36,314 bases of DNA from Myxococcales bacterium (GTDB lineage Bacteria > Myxococcota_A > Polyangia > Polyangiales > Polyangiaceae): assembly GCA_012514535.1 (NCBI GenBank), contig JAAZAA010000107.1:1-36314 (forward strand), in the 5' to 3' direction. The notes beneath the pieces were generated by a model. That model saw nothing but the letters and a program-made list of their open reading frames with translations. It ran no database searches and was not told where the DNA came from. The translations under genes and the position numbers were made by a program. Positions 26,761 to 36,232 of the stretch are shown here, piece by piece (positions within the stretch are counted from its first letter, which is position 1; every line of letters starts with the position of its first letter).

Positions 26761-27999
26761 TCAGCGATCCCGCGCCGGGAACGCCTGGACCAGGGCGACC
26801 TCGTCGTGACCGCACAGGAGCGCGACGAGCCGATCGAGCCCCAGGGCGTTCCCCGCGCTCGGGGGCATGCCCTCGTCCAGGGCCGCGAGGAAGCGCTCGT
26901 CCAAGGGGTACACGGGCTCCCCGCTGCGGGCACGGCGCGCCCGCTCCGCCTCGAAGCGGCGGCGCTGCTCCGGGCCGTCCGTGAGCTCGCCGAAGCCGTT
27001 GCACAGCTCGATGCCCGCGACGTAGAGTTCGAAGCGCTCCGCCACCGTGGGATCCTCCGGGCAAGGACGCGCCAGCGGCGCCTGGCTCAGCGGGTAGTGG
27101 GTGAGGAAGATCGGGTGAGCCTCCGCGGCCAGGGCGGGCTCCACCTCCTGCACCAACAGCTCGAAGAAGCGGAGCTCGTCGTCTCGGGCCAGGGCCACGG
27201 CGTCCGCGATCCCCGCGTGACGCTGGAACGCCTCCCGCACCGTGAGCCGCTCGAAGGGAGGCGCGAGCTGGAGCTCGCGCTGCTTGCCGTTCACGACGGC
27301 CGCCACGGACGTCGAGCCCCTGGTGGCGGACGCGGCGCGGGCGAGCAGGCGCTCCGTGTCCGCGGCGACCTCCGTCCAGGGGGCGAAGGCGCGGTACCAC
27401 TCCACCAACGTGAACTCGGGCTCGTGGTGCCTGCCGAGCTCTTCGGCGCGGAAGCACCGGGCGATCTCGAAGATCCGCGGCATGCCCCCGACGATCAGCC
27501 GCTTCAGGTGCAGCTCGGGCGAGGTGATCAGAAAGTCGCGCTCCGCGCCCCGCTCGACCCCGCCGAGGGAATGGACGTGGGGATCGAGGCCCGGGCAGGG
27601 GACGAGGCTGGGGGTCTCCACCTCGACGAAATCCTCGCCGTGGAAGTAGTCCCGGATCGTCCGCAGGATGGTGTCGCGGGCGACGAGGTGGTGGGCCCGT
27701 CCGGACCAGGCGAGGCGCGCGTGTTCGCCGGTGCCCCGGGGCGCGGCGCCTGGGCTGAGCTCCAGGGACGTCGCGCGAAAGCGGCTGCCGTCCCAGGTGC
27801 CCCGCGCGAGCACCCAGCTGCCTTCCGCCGGGAGGTCGGCGTCGCCAGGGGGCGGCTCGAAGGAGATCTGGCACCAGGCGTCCGCGATGAGGAGCTCGGC
27901 CGTGCGCCGAGCGACCACCCGGCCTCCGAGGGCGAGGACGTCGCTGCTCGCGGCTCGCCGCAGGAGCGCGCGGGGAGAGAGAACGGTCTCAGCCGGCAA
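26761..27999 (-). CDS. epmA: EpmA-like EF-P lysine ligase with OB-like N-terminus
   Basis: A 412-residue class II aaRS-like enzyme of the EpmA/GenX/PoxA group, which attaches (R)-beta-lysine (or a related amino acid) to a Lys of elongation factor P. Motifs include TPSLVPCPGLDPHVHS, LITSPELHLKRLIVGGMPRIFEIARCFRAEE, HHEPEFTLVEWYRAF and the motif 3-like NALGLDRLVALLCG. E. coli EpmA has about 325 residues and no anticodon-binding domain; here ~90 N-terminal residues look like an OB fold (ALGGRVVARRTAELLIADAW, SWVLARGTWDGSRFRATSLE). EF-P and EpmB are not in the window. The TTG start at 27999 overlaps the sctS stop by 11 bases, so translation is likely to be coupled. Confidence 0.85.
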   Translation of the reverse strand: MPAETVLSPRALLRRAASSDVLALGGRVVARRTAELLIADAWCQISFEPPPGDADLPAEGSWVLARGTWDGSRFRATSLELSPGAAPRGTGEHARLAWSGRAHHLVARDTILRTIRDYFHGEDFVEVETPSLVPCPGLDPHVHSLGGVERGAERDFLITSPELHLKRLIVGGMPRIFEIARCFRAEELGRHHEPEFTLVEWYRAFAPWTEVAADTERLLARAASATRGSTSVAAVVNGKQRELQLAPPFERLTVREAFQRHAGIADAVALARDDELRFFELLVQEVEPALAAEAHPIFLTHYPLSQAPLARPCPEDPTVAERFELYVAGIELCNGFGELTDGPEQRRRFEAERARRARSGEPVYPLDERFLAALDEGMPPSAGNALGLDRLVALLCGHDEVALVQAFPARDR

Positions 28000-28240
28000 A
28001 GGCGCGCTCGGCGAAGGACACGATCTGGGAGCCCATCCACGTGGCCGTCATGCCTACGGCCAGGGCCACCGCGACCAGGCGAGGAAGATGAGAGAGGGCG
28101 GCGTCGTGGACGTGCACGATGCTCTGCAGGAGCGAGCTCACCAGCCCCACGAGCGCAGCGATCCCGACGACGGGGAGGGAGAGCATCACGCTGAGCACGA
28201 GGGCCTCTTGCCCGAGTCGAATCAGCTCTTCGAGGGTCAT
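27989..28240 (-). CDS. sctS: FliQ/SctS family type III export protein
   Basis: An 83-residue protein with two membrane helices (about 16-38 and 55-75) and the family pattern LGQEALVLSVMLSLPVVGIAALVGLVSSLLQ. FliQ/SctS is normally four copies in the export-gate complex with FliP/SctR and FliR/SctT. None of these is adjacent: instead the gene sits between a small lipoprotein gene (17 nt upstream) and epmA (overlapping 11 bases). Length is right for the family (about 85-90). A GGAGG directly abuts the ATG, which is unusual. Its sister component SctV is at 3.4-5.5 kb. Whether the system is flagellar or injectisome is undetermined. Confidence 0.85.
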   Translation of the reverse strand: MTLEELIRLGQEALVLSVMLSLPVVGIAALVGLVSSLLQSIVHVHDAALSHLPRLVAVALAVGMTATWMGSQIVSFAERAFAG

Positions 28241-30181: not shown

Positions 30182-30658
30182 ATGGAGGACACTTCCTCGG
30201 TCAGCGAGCTGCTCCAGCCCTCCCTGGCTGGCAGAAAGCTCCGCCAGCAACCCCTCTCGGACACGGCCACCGTCGTGATCTCCTTTCTGGGCGGGGCGCC
30301 GGCGGCGATCCTGGCCGGTGTGTTCAACGCGCGCCGGATGGGCCGCCCGGCGTGGGACGGGTACCTGGCGGCGGCGCTGTTCGCGGCGTGGCTGGGGTGC
30401 TGTCTGCTCTTCTTCCGCTCGTCGGGCGCGGCGAGCGTGCCCGAGTGGTTGGGGCAGGGGCGACTCGTGCGCACGTTCCAGCAGGGGACCGGGCTCCTCG
30501 TGTGTGGGGCGTTCTTCCTCGCGCAGCGCGCCGCCCGCCGCGCCGCGGCGCTCCTGGACGGGCCACCGCCGCGCCCCTGGCTGCCGGGGCTCGTGATGGT
30601 GCTCCTCGGCCATTTGGTCATCGGCGTCGTGCTGTGGTGGGGAGGGCAGTTTGGCTGA
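30182..30658 (+). CDS. Four-TM hypothetical protein of TPR/AAA+ operon
   Basis: A 158-residue membrane protein with no recognised family. A ~27-residue polar N-terminus (MEDTSSVSELLQ) precedes four predicted helices (about 29-48, 58-76, 103-120 and 134-154). The sequence between them is short, so most of the protein is in the membrane. It is the first of three overlapping genes; its stop (30656-30658) lies inside the next gene, whose TTG start is at 30651. This overlap and the identical strand argue for a complex with the downstream TPR membrane protein and AAA+ ATPase. Confidence 0.65.
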   Translation: MEDTSSVSELLQPSLAGRKLRQQPLSDTATVVISFLGGAPAAILAGVFNARRMGRPAWDGYLAAALFAAWLGCCLLFFRSSGAASVPEWLGQGRLVRTFQQGTGLLVCGAFFLAQRAARRAAALLDGPPPRPWLPGLVMVLLGHLVIGVVLWWGGQFG

Positions 30659-31523
30659 GCTCGCGGAGCTGCAGCAGGTCGATCTGTTGCTCGACGTGCG
30701 CCGGACGGCGACGGCGCGGGAGCGGCTGAGCGCGCTGCTGCGCCGCGATCCGAACGACGTGGAGGTGCTGGTGCGCCTCGCCCGCGCCGAGCACCTCGAC
30801 GACGACGAGGAGCAAGCCCTCGAGCACGTCGAGCGCGCCCTCGCCAGCGATCCGACCCACGAGGGCGCCCGGTTCCTGCGCGCCTCCATCCTCTGCGAGT
30901 CGAAGCGCTACGCAGAAGCGGAGGAGATGCTGCTCGGCCTGCTCCGAGAGAACCCGCGGGACGCGGACTATCTCGCCGCCTACGCCCGGGTGATGCTCCT
31001 GGCCCTGGAGCTCGACAAGGCGGGGCGCCTCGCTCAGGAAGCCATCCGCCTCGAGCCGGAGAACCAGCACGCCCTGCTCGTGCACGGGCTCATCGCGAGC
31101 GTGCGAGGTCGGGACGAGGAGGCGCAGGCCGCCCTGACCACACTCCTCGCCAGCGATCCCGAGAGCACGCAGGTGGTGTGGTTGCTCTTTCACATGCTGA
31201 TCACGGCGCGGCGCTATCGGGAGGCGGAGCGCGTGGGGCAGCAGCTGCTGCGGCTCGATCCGACCGACGAGTCCATCGTCGACGCCCTCGTCGAGCTCCG
31301 GGTGGCGAACCACTGGGCGGCCTGGCCCCTCTACCCGCTCCTGCGGTGGGGCTGGGCGGCCTCCGCTGCCCTGTGGTTCGTGGCGATCGTCGGAGGGCGC
31401 GCCCTGGTGCGCTGGAACCCGACGGTGGGGATGACCTTCCTCGGCGCCTACGTGATCCTCGTGATCTACTCGTGGACCTACCAGCCCATCTTCAAGCGCT
31501 GGGTCCGCCGGAGGGCCTCATGA
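30651..31523 (+). CDS. TPR membrane protein of TPR/AAA+ operon
   Basis: A 290-residue protein. About 220 N-terminal residues form five to six TPR-like repeats (ARAEHLDDDEEQALEHVERA, LRASILCESKRYAEAEEMLL, AREAIRLEP-like helices). Two C-terminal membrane helices (about 223-247 and 254-275, ending YQPIFKRWVRR) anchor it. The TPR domain is presumably cytoplasmic. It starts at TTG 30651 with GGAGGG four bases upstream, overlapping the preceding gene by 8 bp, and overlaps the AAA+ gene by ATGA. No catalytic motif is visible; it probably recruits or positions the ATPase at the membrane (inference). Confidence 0.75.
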   Translation: MAELAELQQVDLLLDVRRTATARERLSALLRRDPNDVEVLVRLARAEHLDDDEEQALEHVERALASDPTHEGARFLRASILCESKRYAEAEEMLLGLLRENPRDADYLAAYARVMLLALELDKAGRLAQEAIRLEPENQHALLVHGLIASVRGRDEEAQAALTTLLASDPESTQVVWLLFHMLITARRYREAERVGQQLLRLDPTDESIVDALVELRVANHWAAWPLYPLLRWGWAASAALWFVAIVGGRALVRWNPTVGMTFLGAYVILVIYSWTYQPIFKRWVRRRAS

Positions 31524-32767
31524 CGACCTTGCTCGACCTCGAGCGCAGCTTGCTCCAGAACCCCTTCGACGCGCGCTTGCGCCACGCCTACGCCGAGGCC
31601 TTGGAGAACGCGGAGCGCCACGAGGACGCCCTGACCCAGTGGCGGCTCCTGTGCAGTCAGGGGGAGAGCGCCGCGGTGTGGCTCCGCGTGGCGCTGTGCC
31701 TCGGCGCTCTGGGCCGCGACGACGAAGCCGCGGATGCGCAGGAGGCCGCAGAACGCCAGCCGGACCATGAGCAGGCGCGGGCTGCTCTGTCGCCCGCCCA
31801 GCGGGCCGCCCTGGGCGCCCGGGCGCCGCGCCAACCCCTGCGGCTCGTGTCCGGAGGAGCGCACGAGGTGCCGGATGCGGGCGAGGTGATCTCGATCCAT
31901 CGCGCCGCCAAGGTGCGCTTCGCGGACGTGGCGGGGATGGACGAGCTGAAGAAGATCCTGCGCCTGCGCATCATCGAGCCCTTCTTGCGCCCGGGGCTCT
32001 TCCAGCGGTTCAAGCGCAAGGCGGGCGGCGGCGTGCTCCTGTATGGCCCGCCGGGGTGCGGCAAGACGATGATGGCGAAGGCCATCGCCACGGAGTGCGA
32101 CGCCAGCTTCACCGCGGTGGGGATCAGCGACGTGCTGAACATGTTCGTTGGCCAGTCCGAACAGAACCTGGCGGGGGTCTTCGACAAAGCTCGCAGCGAG
32201 CGCCCGGCGGTCCTGTTCTTCGACGAGCTCGACGCGCTGGCCTACTCGAGGAGCAAGGCCCACTCGGATCACACCCGCACCACCGTGAACGAGTTCCTGA
32301 ACCAGCTCGACGGCATGAGCGGGCAGAACGACGGGGTGCTCGTGCTCGGCGCCACCAACATGCCCTGGGACGTCGACGAGGCCATGAAGCGCCCGGGCCG
32401 CTTCGATCGGCAGGTCTTCGTTCCGCCGCCCGACGCCCAGGCCCGGGAGGAGATCTTCCGGATGAAGCTGCGGGACGTGCCCGTCGCGGAGCTCGACTAC
32501 GCCGCCCTGGCGCGCCTGACGGAGAACTTCTCGGGCGCCGACATCGACGGGGTGATCGAGGCGGCGAAGGACGGGGCGCTGCTCCAACTCCTCGACGCGG
32601 TGGAGGAGGTGCGCATCCAGCAAGAGGATCTGACCCGAGCGATCGCCGAGGCGGTCCCGAGCACCCTCGACTGGCTGAAGACCGCTCGCAACCTCGTGAA
32701 GTTCGGCGGCGTCGGGCGCGCCTACAAGGACGTCGAGCAGTACCTGCGGCAGACGCGCATGTACTGA
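31520..32767 (+). CDS. TPR-AAA+ ATPase (classical AAA clade, Vps4/Cdc48-like)
   Basis: A 415-residue ATPase. Residues 1-95 form an N-terminal helical TPR-like domain (FDARLRHAYAEALENAERHE and a second pair). After a linker, a single AAA module begins with FADVAGMDELKKILR. The Walker A is GPPGCGKT (176-183), the Walker B VLFFDELDAL (231-240), sensor 1 ATN (278-280) and the arginine-finger region RPGRFDR (291-297). The lid is ENFSGADIDGVIEAAKDGAL. The domain resembles classical AAA remodelling enzymes such as Vps4, katanin and FtsH/Cdc48, but has no protease domain. It probably forms a hexamer that threads or disassembles a protein. The ATGA overlap with the TPR membrane gene indicates coupling. 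Confidence 0.85.
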   Translation: MTTLLDLERSLLQNPFDARLRHAYAEALENAERHEDALTQWRLLCSQGESAAVWLRVALCLGALGRDDEAADAQEAAERQPDHEQARAALSPAQRAALGARAPRQPLRLVSGGAHEVPDAGEVISIHRAAKVRFADVAGMDELKKILRLRIIEPFLRPGLFQRFKRKAGGGVLLYGPPGCGKTMMAKAIATECDASFTAVGISDVLNMFVGQSEQNLAGVFDKARSERPAVLFFDELDALAYSRSKAHSDHTRTTVNEFLNQLDGMSGQNDGVLVLGATNMPWDVDEAMKRPGRFDRQVFVPPPDAQAREEIFRMKLRDVPVAELDYAALARLTENFSGADIDGVIEAAKDGALLQLLDAVEEVRIQQEDLTRAIAEAVPSTLDWLKTARNLVKFGGVGRAYKDVEQYLRQTRMY

Positions 32768-32844: not shown

Positions 32845-33942
32845 TCAGAAGCCGAGCATCAGGCCGACGGAGACGTTCAGCGTCGGGCGTCCGACGGTCG
32901 CCACGTCCCGTCGATCGAAGCGCATGCGGGGAGCATCCGTGAGCAGCGAGCCTCCGGAGAGCAGGTAAACGCCGAGGCGACTCGTCAGCCAATGACCTCC
33001 GCCCGCTTGCAGGCCGAAGGCGGGGCTCCAGTGGACGCCGCTGCCCGCGGTGAACCCCGTCCGGGCCTCCGCCCGCGCCGCATAGTGGGCCGCCCCGAGA
33101 CCTCCCGCGACGAACAGGAACCCGCCGGGCCAGGGCTGGGTCTCGGCGCCGACGGCGACGTGCATGGACGTCCGCTGCAGCTCCGCGATGCCCTCTTCGG
33201 CGTCGTAGCGCCCCCCGAGGAAGCCGTGCTGGACCGTCAGCCCGAGGCGGAACCAGGACGGTTGCCACCAGACCGCGGCCTGGATCCCACCCTGTCCGGT
33301 CCCCGGGGGAAGCTCCAGCTCGGCGAGGGCCCCGATCCATGCGGACCACGGGGGGGGAGTCACGGGCGGGCCGCTCGGCTCGTCGCGCTGCGGCTCCGAC
33401 GGCGGCGGCGCGACGGTCGGCTCGCGAGGTTCGGGGAGGGGGGCGATGCGCGTGAAGTCCGTCACCGCTCCGGGCAGGCCGCTGCCCGCCTCGTTCTGTG
33501 TTTCCACTTCGTGCCGGGCGTACTGGATCATCGCGGCGCGCAGGGCCTCCACGGCGCGCACGGCGACGACCTCCGCGTCCATGCCTGGGTGGTTCCGCTG
33601 GGCCGACTGGCTCACGGGGGTCTCGAGGCCCCGGGCGTAGGCCCGGATGTCGATGCGCGACCGCTGCTGGGACAGGACGATGGCCCCGTAGTCGCCCGCG
33701 TCGAGGGGGACGAGCTCCTCGTCGGAGACGCTCCCCGGCGGTCGGATCTCGACGCGCAGCCCGACGGCGGCCAGCTCACCGCTGATGCGGATGAGCGCCT
33801 CGTCGATCAGGGGATCCGTACGCTCCGGAGGGAAGATCAGGACCCGCGCCTCGCCCCGGGCCAGCGCGCTCGCGCTTGTGAGGAGCAACGCGAAGAGCCA
33901 GGCGAGCGCCCTCCTCGCACGGGTCGTCGAACGCCGGCTCAC
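32845..33942 (-). CDS. Outer-membrane beta-barrel-like hypothetical protein
   Basis: A 365-residue secreted protein. A signal peptide (LAWLFALLLTSASALARG) starts it. Residues ~35-145 resemble a TolB-like or GTP-binding-like alpha/beta domain (ARVLIFPPERTDPLIDEALI, GAIVLSQQRSRIDIRAYARG). A Pro/Glu-rich linker at ~150-195 follows, and the C-terminal ~165 residues are amphipathic strands ending in GLMLGF, typical of an outer-membrane barrel. GTG 33942 has a near-perfect candidate promoter upstream. It follows the ECF and FecR genes on the same strand after a 183-bp gap and may be their target, which is untested inference. Confidence 0.6.
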   Translation of the reverse strand: MSRRSTTRARRALAWLFALLLTSASALARGEARVLIFPPERTDPLIDEALIRISGELAAVGLRVEIRPPGSVSDEELVPLDAGDYGAIVLSQQRSRIDIRAYARGLETPVSQSAQRNHPGMDAEVVAVRAVEALRAAMIQYARHEVETQNEAGSGLPGAVTDFTRIAPLPEPREPTVAPPPSEPQRDEPSGPPVTPPPWSAWIGALAELELPPGTGQGGIQAAVWWQPSWFRLGLTVQHGFLGGRYDAEEGIAELQRTSMHVAVGAETQPWPGGFLFVAGGLGAAHYAARAEARTGFTAGSGVHWSPAFGLQAGGGHWLTSRLGVYLLSGGSLLTDAPRMRFDRRDVATVGRPTLNVSVGLMLGF

Positions 33943-33950
33943 GTGAGCCG

Positions 33951-33980
33951 AGAATACCCACGGTCGGGGAGAGACTTCAA
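33951..33980 (-). promoter_or_regulatory. Promoter of the beta-barrel protein
   Basis: On the minus strand TTGAAG, 18 nt, TATTCT, then eight bases to GTG 33942; near-leaderless. It lies within the 183-bp gap after the FecR-type gene, which otherwise holds nothing recognisable. Confidence 0.45.
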
Positions 33981-34125
33981 TGCGGAGGGGCCAGCCGAAA
34001 AGCCCGCGCCCCAGTGCGCTCCGCTCGGAGGGCTCCTGCTCCGACCGCTCGTGCTCCGGCCGCGGCTCGCGGGCGCCTGCGCTCACCGGTGGGCCCTGGC
34101 CCGGGAACGAAGCGGCGCCCTCCGC

Positions 34126-35424
34126 TCAGTCGTTGAGCAAGATATCACGGGCGGTGTCGGCGTAAGGCCCGTGGGGGAAGCGCGCGACGTACTCACGAGC
34201 CACCTCACGAGCCTTGTCGTCGCCCCGCGTGGCGCGGATGAGGGTCAGCTTCCGTCCCAAGGTCTCCGACGCGTAGACGCCGGTCGGCGCTTCGGAGAGA
34301 TAGGTGTCGAACCAGCGCAGCGCCTGCTCCGGGCGCCCCATCTGATCGTCGATGCGCCCGAGGAAGAACGCCGCCTGCGCGCTGGCCGCCTGACCTGCGA
34401 AGCGCTTGCGGATCGTGGTCCACGCCTGCACGGCCAGCTTGGTGTTGCCCGTGTAGCGGGCCGCCTGGGCGAGGGCCTGGAGCTCGGTGGCGTCCCGTCG
34501 AGCGAGCACCTGCTCCACGCCTTCCCGCTGAGCGCTGCGGACGACGTCCTCGAACTTCCCCGACGCGACCTGCTCGCGCCAGCTCGGTCCCGCGCTGCGC
34601 CCTTCGCTGACGCCTTCGCCGGCCCCATCGCTCGGCGCGCCAGGGCCCCGTCGCGTCGCGCTCCGGGGATCCTCGCGCTTGGCCGTAACCGCTGGATCGG
34701 ACGCTTCGCCGGGGAGGGCGTCCAGGGGCGCGGCCTCCGTCGCGTCGACGACCTGCTGGTGCTCGTCGAGGATCAGCACCTCACCGGCCCCCAACCGCCG
34801 CGGCTTTTCGCCCGGCCCCGTCACCACGACGCGACCCTGGTGCATCACCAGCGCGAACCGGCCGCGATCGGCGTCCCAGCTGAGATCGAAGCGCGTCCCC
34901 ACCACCTCCACCTCGTAGGGGCCCGCCAGAAACCTCCAGTGGGTCTCCGGGTTGGGCACCACGTGCACCGTGACCTTGCCCTGCGAGAGGCGGGTGACCA
35001 GCTTGCGCTCCCCGACCACGTGCACGTTGAGAACGGTGTGCTTCGCCGCCTCGATGGAGCTGTCGTCGCTGAACAGCAGCTTGGCGGGTTCGTCCTCGGT
35101 GGTGATCAGCTCTCCCTGGGAGTGCCCTCCCACGAGCTCGTACTCCAGGCCGGGAGGCGGACCTCCGTCGACCATCAGGGCGACCCCTGCGGCGATCGCC
35201 AGGGCGGGCACACCGATCCAGAGCAGACGCCGGGCCCAGGAGGGCCGCGCCGCCGGGGCGGGGCGGATCCCGAGGCGCTCCGCCTGCTGTCGCTGCTGGA
35301 TGCGCCGCCAGGTGAGCTCGGCGGTCTCACGCTCCTTGCGGCGCGTGCGGATGTGCTCCTCGGCCAAGGCCCGGAACACGGTCGTGACTTGCTCTTCGCG
35401 GAGCGGCGGTGCTTGTCTAGCCAT
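34126..35424 (-). CDS. FecR-domain and TPR protein (anti-sigma-like)
   Basis: A 432-residue protein. About 65 cytoplasmic residues rich in Arg/Glu/Gln helices precede one membrane helix (about 68-85). A periplasmic FecR domain (about 95-215; ELVGGHSQGELITTED, VTRLSQGKVTVHVVP, FDLSWDADRGRFALVMHQGRV, GEVLILDEHQQ) follows. A disordered Ala/Gly/Ser linker leads to a C-terminal TPR region (~285-430, ending FPHGPYADTARDILL). FecR proteins relay a periplasmic signal to their partner sigma factor across the membrane. Its start overlaps the sigma factor stop by eight bases, so the two are co-translated; the TPR tail is an addition to classical FecR. Confidence 0.85.
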   Translation of the reverse strand: MARQAPPLREEQVTTVFRALAEEHIRTRRKERETAELTWRRIQQRQQAERLGIRPAPAARPSWARRLLWIGVPALAIAAGVALMVDGGPPPGLEYELVGGHSQGELITTEDEPAKLLFSDDSSIEAAKHTVLNVHVVGERKLVTRLSQGKVTVHVVPNPETHWRFLAGPYEVEVVGTRFDLSWDADRGRFALVMHQGRVVVTGPGEKPRRLGAGEVLILDEHQQVVDATEAAPLDALPGEASDPAVTAKREDPRSATRRGPGAPSDGAGEGVSEGRSAGPSWREQVASGKFEDVVRSAQREGVEQVLARRDATELQALAQAARYTGNTKLAVQAWTTIRKRFAGQAASAQAAFFLGRIDDQMGRPEQALRWFDTYLSEAPTGVYASETLGRKLTLIRATRGDDKAREVAREYVARFPHGPYADTARDILLND

Positions 35425-36079
35425 GGCTGCCCCCGGATCGGTCCCGAATGTAGTCGGCGAGCAGGGCGTTGCGGCTGACGCGCTTGCGCACGTGCTCGTT
35501 GGCCCGGCGGACGCGCCGCTTGGCCGTGGAGAGAGAGACGTGGAGCACCTCGGCGATCTCCACCATGCTGAGCCCCTCGAGGCCGCTGAGCACGAAGGCG
35601 ATGCGGTCCTCCGTGTTGATGTCGTCGAGGATGCGGCTGAGCTGGAGCAGCGCGGCCTTCGCCTTGGGGTCGTCGGTGCTGGTCCCGCGCTCCCACTCCT
35701 GGGGACCGCCCACCAGCTTGTAGATGAGGCGGCGGCGCTTGCGCTGCCGGACCTCCCGGCGGACCACGTTCATCGCGATCGACACGATGTAACTCCGGAT
35801 GCCGCTCGCTTGGCGGATGTTCTTGGCACTCTCGAAAAATCCAACGAAGACGTCACTGACCAGATCCTCGATGTCCCCGTGGGGTCCGAGGGATTTCACC
35901 AGCAGGCCGTAGACGAGCCGGTAATAATCGTCGAAAGCTCGCCGCTGCCAATCCGAGCCGCCGTGCTGGATGGCTTCGAACAACGCGATTTCTTCGGCGA
36001 CAGGCACTCGTTCTACAAAGGGCGATGCCAACGATTGCGCCGTGGGGTGAGACCCGGATGTCAGAGCCAAACGTTGCAT
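35417..36079 (-). CDS. ECF-type RNA polymerase sigma factor
   Basis: A 220-residue ECF sigma factor. Region 2 (about 45-115; ALFEAIQHGGSDWQRRAFDD to DLVSDVFVGFFESAKNIRQ) contacts the -10, and region 4 (about 155-205; LSGLEGLSMVEIAEVLHVSL then STAKRRVRRANEHVRKRV) contacts the -35. It is the upstream partner of a FecR-type gene, overlapping by eight bases. ATG 36079 is chosen; the frame continues upstream to TTG 36232, but the first ~50 residues would be poorly conserved. A TATGAT at 36197-36202 (minus strand) may be the -10, giving a leader of about 110 nt. Confidence 0.9.
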   Translation of the reverse strand: MQRLALTSGSHPTAQSLASPFVERVPVAEEIALFEAIQHGGSDWQRRAFDDYYRLVYGLLVKSLGPHGDIEDLVSDVFVGFFESAKNIRQASGIRSYIVSIAMNVVRREVRQRKRRRLIYKLVGGPQEWERGTSTDDPKAKAALLQLSRILDDINTEDRIAFVLSGLEGLSMVEIAEVLHVSLSTAKRRVRRANEHVRKRVSRNALLADYIRDRSGGSHG

Positions 36080-36196
36080 GCCGAGGGGGCCAGGTGGAGC
36101 GGCGAGGCGACCGGGAGGCGGCACGTGGCCCGAGCGCCAGCTCCGATGGAGCGGCGGCGCGACGGAGCCTTCGGACCGACGTCTCCAGTGGTCACC

Positions 36197-36202
36197 ATCA
36201 TA
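36197..36202 (-). promoter_or_regulatory. Possible -10 for the sigma factor gene
   Basis: TATGAT on the minus strand, close to the consensus TATAAT. No matching -35 lies 17 nt upstream; a TTGACC is present but 24 nt away. ECF autoregulation from another element is possible. Confidence 0.3.
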
Positions 36203-36232
36203 GCAGGGTCGCTTTTCCCCGATACGGGTCAA

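Follow-up and report, generated by a model that had tools for sequence, protein, structure and literature searches.

In a published survey, systems comprising both Vps4 and ESCRT-III are regarded as confined to archaea and eukaryotes, and a Vps4 is recognized by (i) an MIT domain or (ii) ESCRT genes nearby (PMC10936438). The locus described here lies in a window—meaning the whole stretch of 36,314 nucleotides that was analyzed, contig JAAZAA010000107.1 of a Myxococcales bacterium—and encodes, in three overlapping genes, a 4-TM membrane protein, a TPR protein with two TM helices (TPR-2TM protein), and an ATPase with a TPR domain and an AAA core.

With Vps4/CdvC (ESCRT-IV), this ATPase shares a single classical AAA domain, a small helical-repeat N-domain, the clade, and the fold (Z ~25). 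Unlike Vps4/CdvC, it is bacterial, its N-domain is TPR and not MIT, its partners are TPR and 4-TM membrane proteins, and no ESCRT-III gene recurs at the loci of its family or lies beside the window genes. Among solved chains, Cdc48/p97 (D2) is the top-ranked AAA core by sequence and by fold; however, the ATPase has one AAA domain instead of two in tandem, bears no p97-type N-domain, and falls into a separate clade. FtsH—the genome of the window encodes two FtsH-like proteins—is likewise a membrane-linked classical AAA unfoldase in bacteria, but the ATPase described here lacks both the fused zinc protease and a TM helix, and its membrane link would be a separate subunit. Msp1/ATAD1 extracts membrane proteins without a protease and is a comparison for how the module might work, although Msp1, which lies outside our tree sampling, has its own TM helix and no TPR partner. 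For IetAS, the AAA core matches IetA, but the alignment is limited to this core, and no subtilisin-like IetS partner is found among the neighboring genes.

A preliminary description made from the DNA alone had recognized no named system in this combination, and none was found here. No paper naming the ATPase family was found in the literature searched, a scope outside which most subscription journals and bioRxiv preprints fall; the family is apparently widespread in bacteria and unnamed. The probability is roughly one half that these genes encode a membrane-docked unfoldase free of any protease, for which the TPR-2TM protein is the dock and by which proteins associated with membranes are extracted or disassembled.

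Gene Layout of the Locus

The three genes occupy 30182–32767 on the + strand, with all ORFs confirmed at the following positions:

30182..30658, + strand: 4-TM membrane protein gene (ORF, 158 aa, ATG start)
30651..31523, + strand: TPR-2TM protein gene (ORF, 290 aa, TTG start)
31520..32767, + strand: TPR-AAA ATPase gene (ORF, 415 aa, ATG start)
30640..30646, + strand: Shine-Dalgarno-like run GGGAGGG before the TTG of the TPR-2TM gene (sequence reading, spacing 4 nt)
31510..31515, + strand: Shine-Dalgarno-like run GGAGGG before the ATG of the ATPase gene (sequence reading, spacing 4 nt)

The first two genes overlap by 8 bp (30651–30658) and the last two by 4 bp (ATGA, 31520–31523), in line with the preliminary description. 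Its placement of the TTG start inside the previous stop codon has to be corrected, as TTG (30651–30653) stands just upstream of TGA (30656–30658). These overlaps make the proposed joint production of the three proteins expected, and both internal starts are preceded by purine-rich, Shine-Dalgarno-like runs, as read by eye. A purpose-written codon-usage gene caller, trained on ATPase genes of the family, chose the identical three ORFs, starts included, although this GC-rich DNA offers many competing ORFs on the antisense strand.

Upstream of the trio lie hisA and pgsA, downstream an unknown 413-aa protein without Pfam match, a FecR-TPR protein, and an ECF sigma factor. Since these flanking genes are on the minus strand on both sides, the trio makes up a putative operon by itself. 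The downstream genes (32845–36232, convergent to the trio) look like a separate regulatory operon. A promoter scan at the trio found no sigma-70 site, the terminator-like sites lie inside genes, and no Rfam elements were found in the region. Elsewhere in the window, at 27989–28240 on the minus strand, an 83-aa two-helix protein appears FliQ/SctS-like (flagellar or type III export) by eye and adjoins an EpmA-like gene.

The ATPase

The ATPase matches the AAA (3.5e-41) and AAA_lid_3 (4e-7) models in Pfam/NCBIfam searches and displays the following elements:

31520..31816, + strand: N-terminal TPR domain (residues 1–99; helix hairpins in the model, profile match to partner TPRs)
32045..32068, + strand: Walker A GPPGCGKT (residues 176–183; invariant in 9 homologues)
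32144..32152, + strand: aromatic pore loop 1, FVG (residues 209–211; from the alignment, Y/W/F-hydrophobic-G in the family)
32222..32227, + strand: Walker B acidic pair D235 E236 (invariant in 9 homologues)
32390..32407, + strand: RPGRFD (residues 291–296; R291 and R294 invariant in the alignment), which we take to be the arginine-finger motif from general knowledge of AAA proteins
32657..32764, + strand: C-terminal family signature (residues 380–415; T382, W385, and Y402 invariant)

With these motor motifs kept and no match to a peptidase domain—the protein ends in a helical tail ~50 residues past the AAA lid match—the claim of a complete classical AAA core without a protease domain is well founded. 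Hydropathy shows no TM helix. The structure model (pLDDT 78.8) displays TPR-like hairpins at residues 4–99 and a disordered linker at 100–129, followed by the AAA core; this model and that of the TPR-2TM protein were made from shallow alignments (4 and 2 rows). Closest to the core among solved folds are p97/Cdc48, spastin, and archaeal and yeast Vps4, which are tied at Z ~24–26 with an rmsd of ~2.7–4.3 over ~242–277 residues.

For the N-domain, the family profile matches the TPRs of the partner protein at 9.1e-15, versus 0.013 over 30 columns for archaeal MIT-type N-domains, and no MIT domain was matched in Pfam. Judged by these profiles, the N-domain is a TPR domain and not an MIT domain, and the model hairpins agree with the TPR-like domain that had been proposed for it.

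Relationship to Vps4 and ESCRT Systems

In maximum-likelihood trees, the ATPase family is monophyletic (100/100; 100/99 in the first tree) and forms a clade with archaeal Vps4-type and planctomycete MIT-type ATPases (99.4/100), from which Cdc48 D1, Cdc48 D2, PAN, and FtsH are excluded. In the first tree, which included long-branch sequences, this grouping reached only 60.7/75. Inside the clade, no sister group of the family gains firm support (37.9/73). As sampled—against prokaryotic outgroups, and not against eukaryotic Vps4, katanin, spastin, Msp1, or crenarchaeal CdvC—the family is thus placed as Vps4-type by descent, but it is not Vps4 by definition, because it has neither an MIT domain nor nearby ESCRT genes. 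The origin of Vps4 from a Cdc48-type ATPase (PMC10936438) agrees with our tree. Methanogen matches were rejected as orthologues: they are Vps4-like, have a gene for an ESCRT-III-like protein next to them, and are not part of the family clade. Two further archaeal single-AAA ATPases (L202 and L203) have no clear N-domain, bear a C-terminal tail as in the methanogen Vps4-type proteins, and group with these at 76.7/91.

This position raises the possibility of a bacterial ESCRT-IV, in which the ATPase would disassemble a polymer of the ESCRT-III superfamily (PspA/Vipp1 or another filament) at the membrane, with TPR instead of MIT recruitment. Besides the clade, it could draw on the related methanogen ATPases, which adjoin an ESCRT-III-like protein (Snf7 0.0019, below cut-off) at loci that match the Meth_adaptin ESCRT loci of PMC10936438, and on the two PspA homologues encoded in the genome of the window. 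Nevertheless, the ATPase has no MIT domain, no ESCRT-III or PspA gene is among its recurrent neighbors, and nearly all Myxococcota searched have PspA, namely 29 of 31 genomes with the ATPase versus 20 of 23 without it, so that a specific co-occurrence is not supported. We consider a bacterial ESCRT-IV of this kind unlikely.

A separate set of loci in Planctomycetota was met during the search. In three clusters (L170, G599:C472:3552-12529; L171, G545:C185:1232-9801; L226, G521:C65:1-14000; see also L225), a Snf7/ESCRT-III-like gene lies close upstream of a Vps4-like ATPase. These ATPases have an MIT-like N-domain (the Pfam MIT model gives no match), are ~40% identical over nearly their whole length to the archaeal Vps4-like ATPase of L204, and group with it at 97.9/100. 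The Snf7-like protein reaches 9.4e-6 with Pfam Snf7, just under the cut-off, and its three-sequence profile matches the gene adjoining the L204 ATPase at 5.8e-13 (best unrelated 0.84). Further coiled-coil proteins are encoded in the clusters, as is a Ser/Thr kinase in L170 and L171, and the same contigs carry, by eye, hypoxanthine phosphoribosyltransferase, cytidine deaminase, and glycyl-tRNA synthetase. By sequence, these clusters look like an ESCRT-III/Vps4 system in bacteria, whose assignment to Planctomycetota is supported by synteny between two of the three genomes, binning errors being otherwise possible.

The Membrane Partners

The TPR-2TM protein matches TPR_19 (2.4e-22, Pfam) and many other TPR models, and comprises ~6 TPRs followed by two long C-terminal helices:

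31344..31514, + strand: codes for both C-terminal TM helices plus the basic tail (residues ~232–288; hydropathy and model)

Its AlphaFold model (pLDDT 81.5 overall, lower in the hairpin) places a solenoid of TPR helices at residues 2–220 and the long helices at 222–255 and 257–289—an anatomy that is predicted and, together with the TPR_19 match, agrees with the earlier view of TPRs held by two C-terminal helices. Because no signal sequence is seen and the tail is basic, both ends are expected in the cytosol, with the hairpin presumably in the inner membrane. An HMM of the last 95 aa of the TPR partner, with the window left out, finds the window protein at 4.9e-20 as well as most partners in other clades, and the C-termini of the two gene-order groups match each other in a profile–profile comparison at 96% and 3.8e-9. 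In many planctomycetes, the TPR partner is instead longer and has some five or six TM helices; a fusion with the 4-TM protein was rejected here, as the extra TM region shows no homology (E 0.17 and 0.3).

For the 4-TM protein, there is no Pfam or NCBIfam match; it bears the motif LLxPxL...FxGG...N.RR.GR. By hydropathy, three TM segments stand out clearly in the window protein, and four in several homologues. An HMM built from nine myxococcal and planctomycete homologues of other genomes, hence with the window left out, finds the window protein at 1.1e-20. Between the two gene orders described below, the 4-TM proteins match with a profile P of 2.2e-4 over 128 columns (0.005 for the Bacillota version), and both probably belong to one family. 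One further candidate, at L121, was flagged as 4-TM by the size and TM filter and is a different protein by eye. Apart from TPR, no domain known for enzymatic activity or substrate binding is seen in either membrane protein.

The 4-TM gene is present at fewer than one third of the Myxococcota ATPase loci, which makes the 4-TM protein an accessory and presumably an optional membrane subunit. In one planctomycete (L167, G475:C12), two tandem copies of the 4-TM and TPR pair precede the ATPase, with HMM matches at positions -4, -3, -2, and -1; likewise, L174 (G828:C1) has two copies of each membrane gene around a single ATPase gene. These duplications suggest a unit made up of both membrane subunits.

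Spread of the ATPase and Constancy of its Partners

A search with a profile of nine homologues found the ATPase gene in 49 of the 378 Myxococcota genomes sampled (weakest match 1e-127) and in 6 of 199 Bacillota genomes. Of 244 Planctomycetota genomes, 47 matched, three of them (~1e-96 to 1e-99) with a different, MIT-type ATPase, leaving ~44. Records of Streptomyces, Nonomuraea, and Actinomyces in a plasmid collection also bear the ATPase; two of these records have an annotated TPR gene next to it, and in the third this gene was called by us. The module is hence not a myxococcal speciality but also belongs to Planctomycetota, Bacillota, and Actinomycetota. Two other genomes of the window's genus (G001 and G002) carry neither the ATPase nor PspA, whereas the genome of the window (G000) has both—an observation on few genomes only.

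The neighborhoods of 91 ATPases were read, with a gap of 120 bp as the same-operon limit and two MIT-type Planctomycetota loci left out of the partner count. A TPR partner, nearly always with C-terminal TM helices, lies in the ATPase operon at 43 of 51 Myxococcota, 25 of 29 Planctomycetota, 5 of 6 Bacillota, and all 3 actinobacterial plasmid loci; at the other four Planctomycetota loci, it lies just past the gap limit or one gene away. All-against-all clustering of neighbors recovers the TPR family at 83 of the 91 loci, and the next family at 10 (protein kinases by eye); among these loci, no neighbor other than the TPR gene recurs, substrate candidates included. Hence, the TPR-membrane gene is the constant partner and the pair is the core, the trio being one form of it. 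Docking at the membrane would not apply to every locus, because 8 of the 51 Myxococcota loci have no nearby TPR partner and the partner at the Bacillota locus L006 bears no TM helix.

The full trio recurs in two orders across Myxococcota, Planctomycetota, and Bacillota. The order 4TM-TPR-ATPase is found at L005, L095, L114, L118, L120, and probably L110, and in planctomycetes at L162–L165 and L167; ATPase-4TM-TPR is found at L076–L080, L082, L091, and L094, and in Bacillota at L174 and L175. The nearest relative, L005, whose ATPase is 61–62% identical, has all three genes arranged as in the window and overlapping by 4 bp. The trio is not a chance arrangement, because L005 keeps this order and homologous trios occur in other phyla. 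The pair alone occurs as TPR-ATPase and ATPase-TPR, and as the association holds while gene order varies, chance linkage is disfavored. Co-transcription without shared function, to which overlapping genes alone would be open since they prove no complex, is for the same reason—persistence across phyla and rearranged orders—extremely improbable. The preliminary description had suggested looking for the trio in other Myxococcota, where it is indeed found, although most ATPase loci lack the 4-TM gene; it had also taken a wide occurrence of the ATPase without the two membrane genes as speaking against a joint machine, which is not observed for the TPR-membrane gene and is in part observed for the 4-TM gene.

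The patchy spread, with the absence from two genomes of the genus and the plasmid copies in Streptomyces and Actinomyces, might fit an AAA-based anti-phage or conflict system, as might a PADLOC match to IetA at 2.2e-35. That match, however, spans the AAA core and not the whole protein, the window ATPase scores higher on the CDC48, FtsH, and PAN models than on the IteA/IetA model, there is no serine protease or other effector gene, and defense neighbors do not recur. A role of this type thus appears very unlikely.

Proposed Mechanism

For the membrane-docked unfoldase, complex formation, the direction of action, and the type of substrate are what we infer. Judging from its family, the ATPase would assemble into a Vps4/Cdc48-type ring. 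The TPR-2TM protein would sit with its C-terminal hairpin in the inner membrane, both ends being cytosolic, and its long TPR arm in the cytosol may recruit the N-terminal TPR domain of the ATPase to the membrane by contact. Powered by ATP, the aromatic pore loops of the ring might then thread a protein associated with the membrane, one that the 4-TM subunit could select or hold. As no protease is present, the outcome would be extraction from the membrane or dismantling of a membrane-bound assembly, not degradation. A suitability for membrane remodeling or protein extraction had been proposed before, and in our trees the ATPase groups with types that are so used; the module may serve in either way and may have a role in the envelope.

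TPR proteins commonly scaffold envelope machines. The module might therefore serve an envelope or secretion complex as its chaperone or assembly factor; the TPR-2TM protein would then be the scaffold, ATP would be spent on assembly and not removal, and the 4-TM protein could be a core channel component. Yet genes for secretion, pili, or the envelope are not among the recurrent neighbors of the module, and the aromatic pore loops favor threading, which leaves an assembly factor rather doubtful.

The membrane-docked unfoldase can be set into a wider frame, which we put forward tentatively. The family may be a bacterial branch of the Vps4 radiation in which TPR–TPR docking on a dedicated membrane receptor replaced MIT/ESCRT-III recruitment, and which serves in several phyla as a general membrane-protein extractor or a machine for the disassembly of membrane polymers.

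Vps4-type ATPases are otherwise described from archaea and eukaryotes. With a conserved family of this type, tied to membrane partners of its own, bacteria would possess a dedicated Vps4-like motor, and the module would be a tractable system in which to ask how motors of this kind acquired their action on membranes. As it is present in several phyla, establishing its function in a single host could serve to annotate many genomes. The ATPase ring may be an overlooked bacterial machine that pulls proteins apart at membranes.
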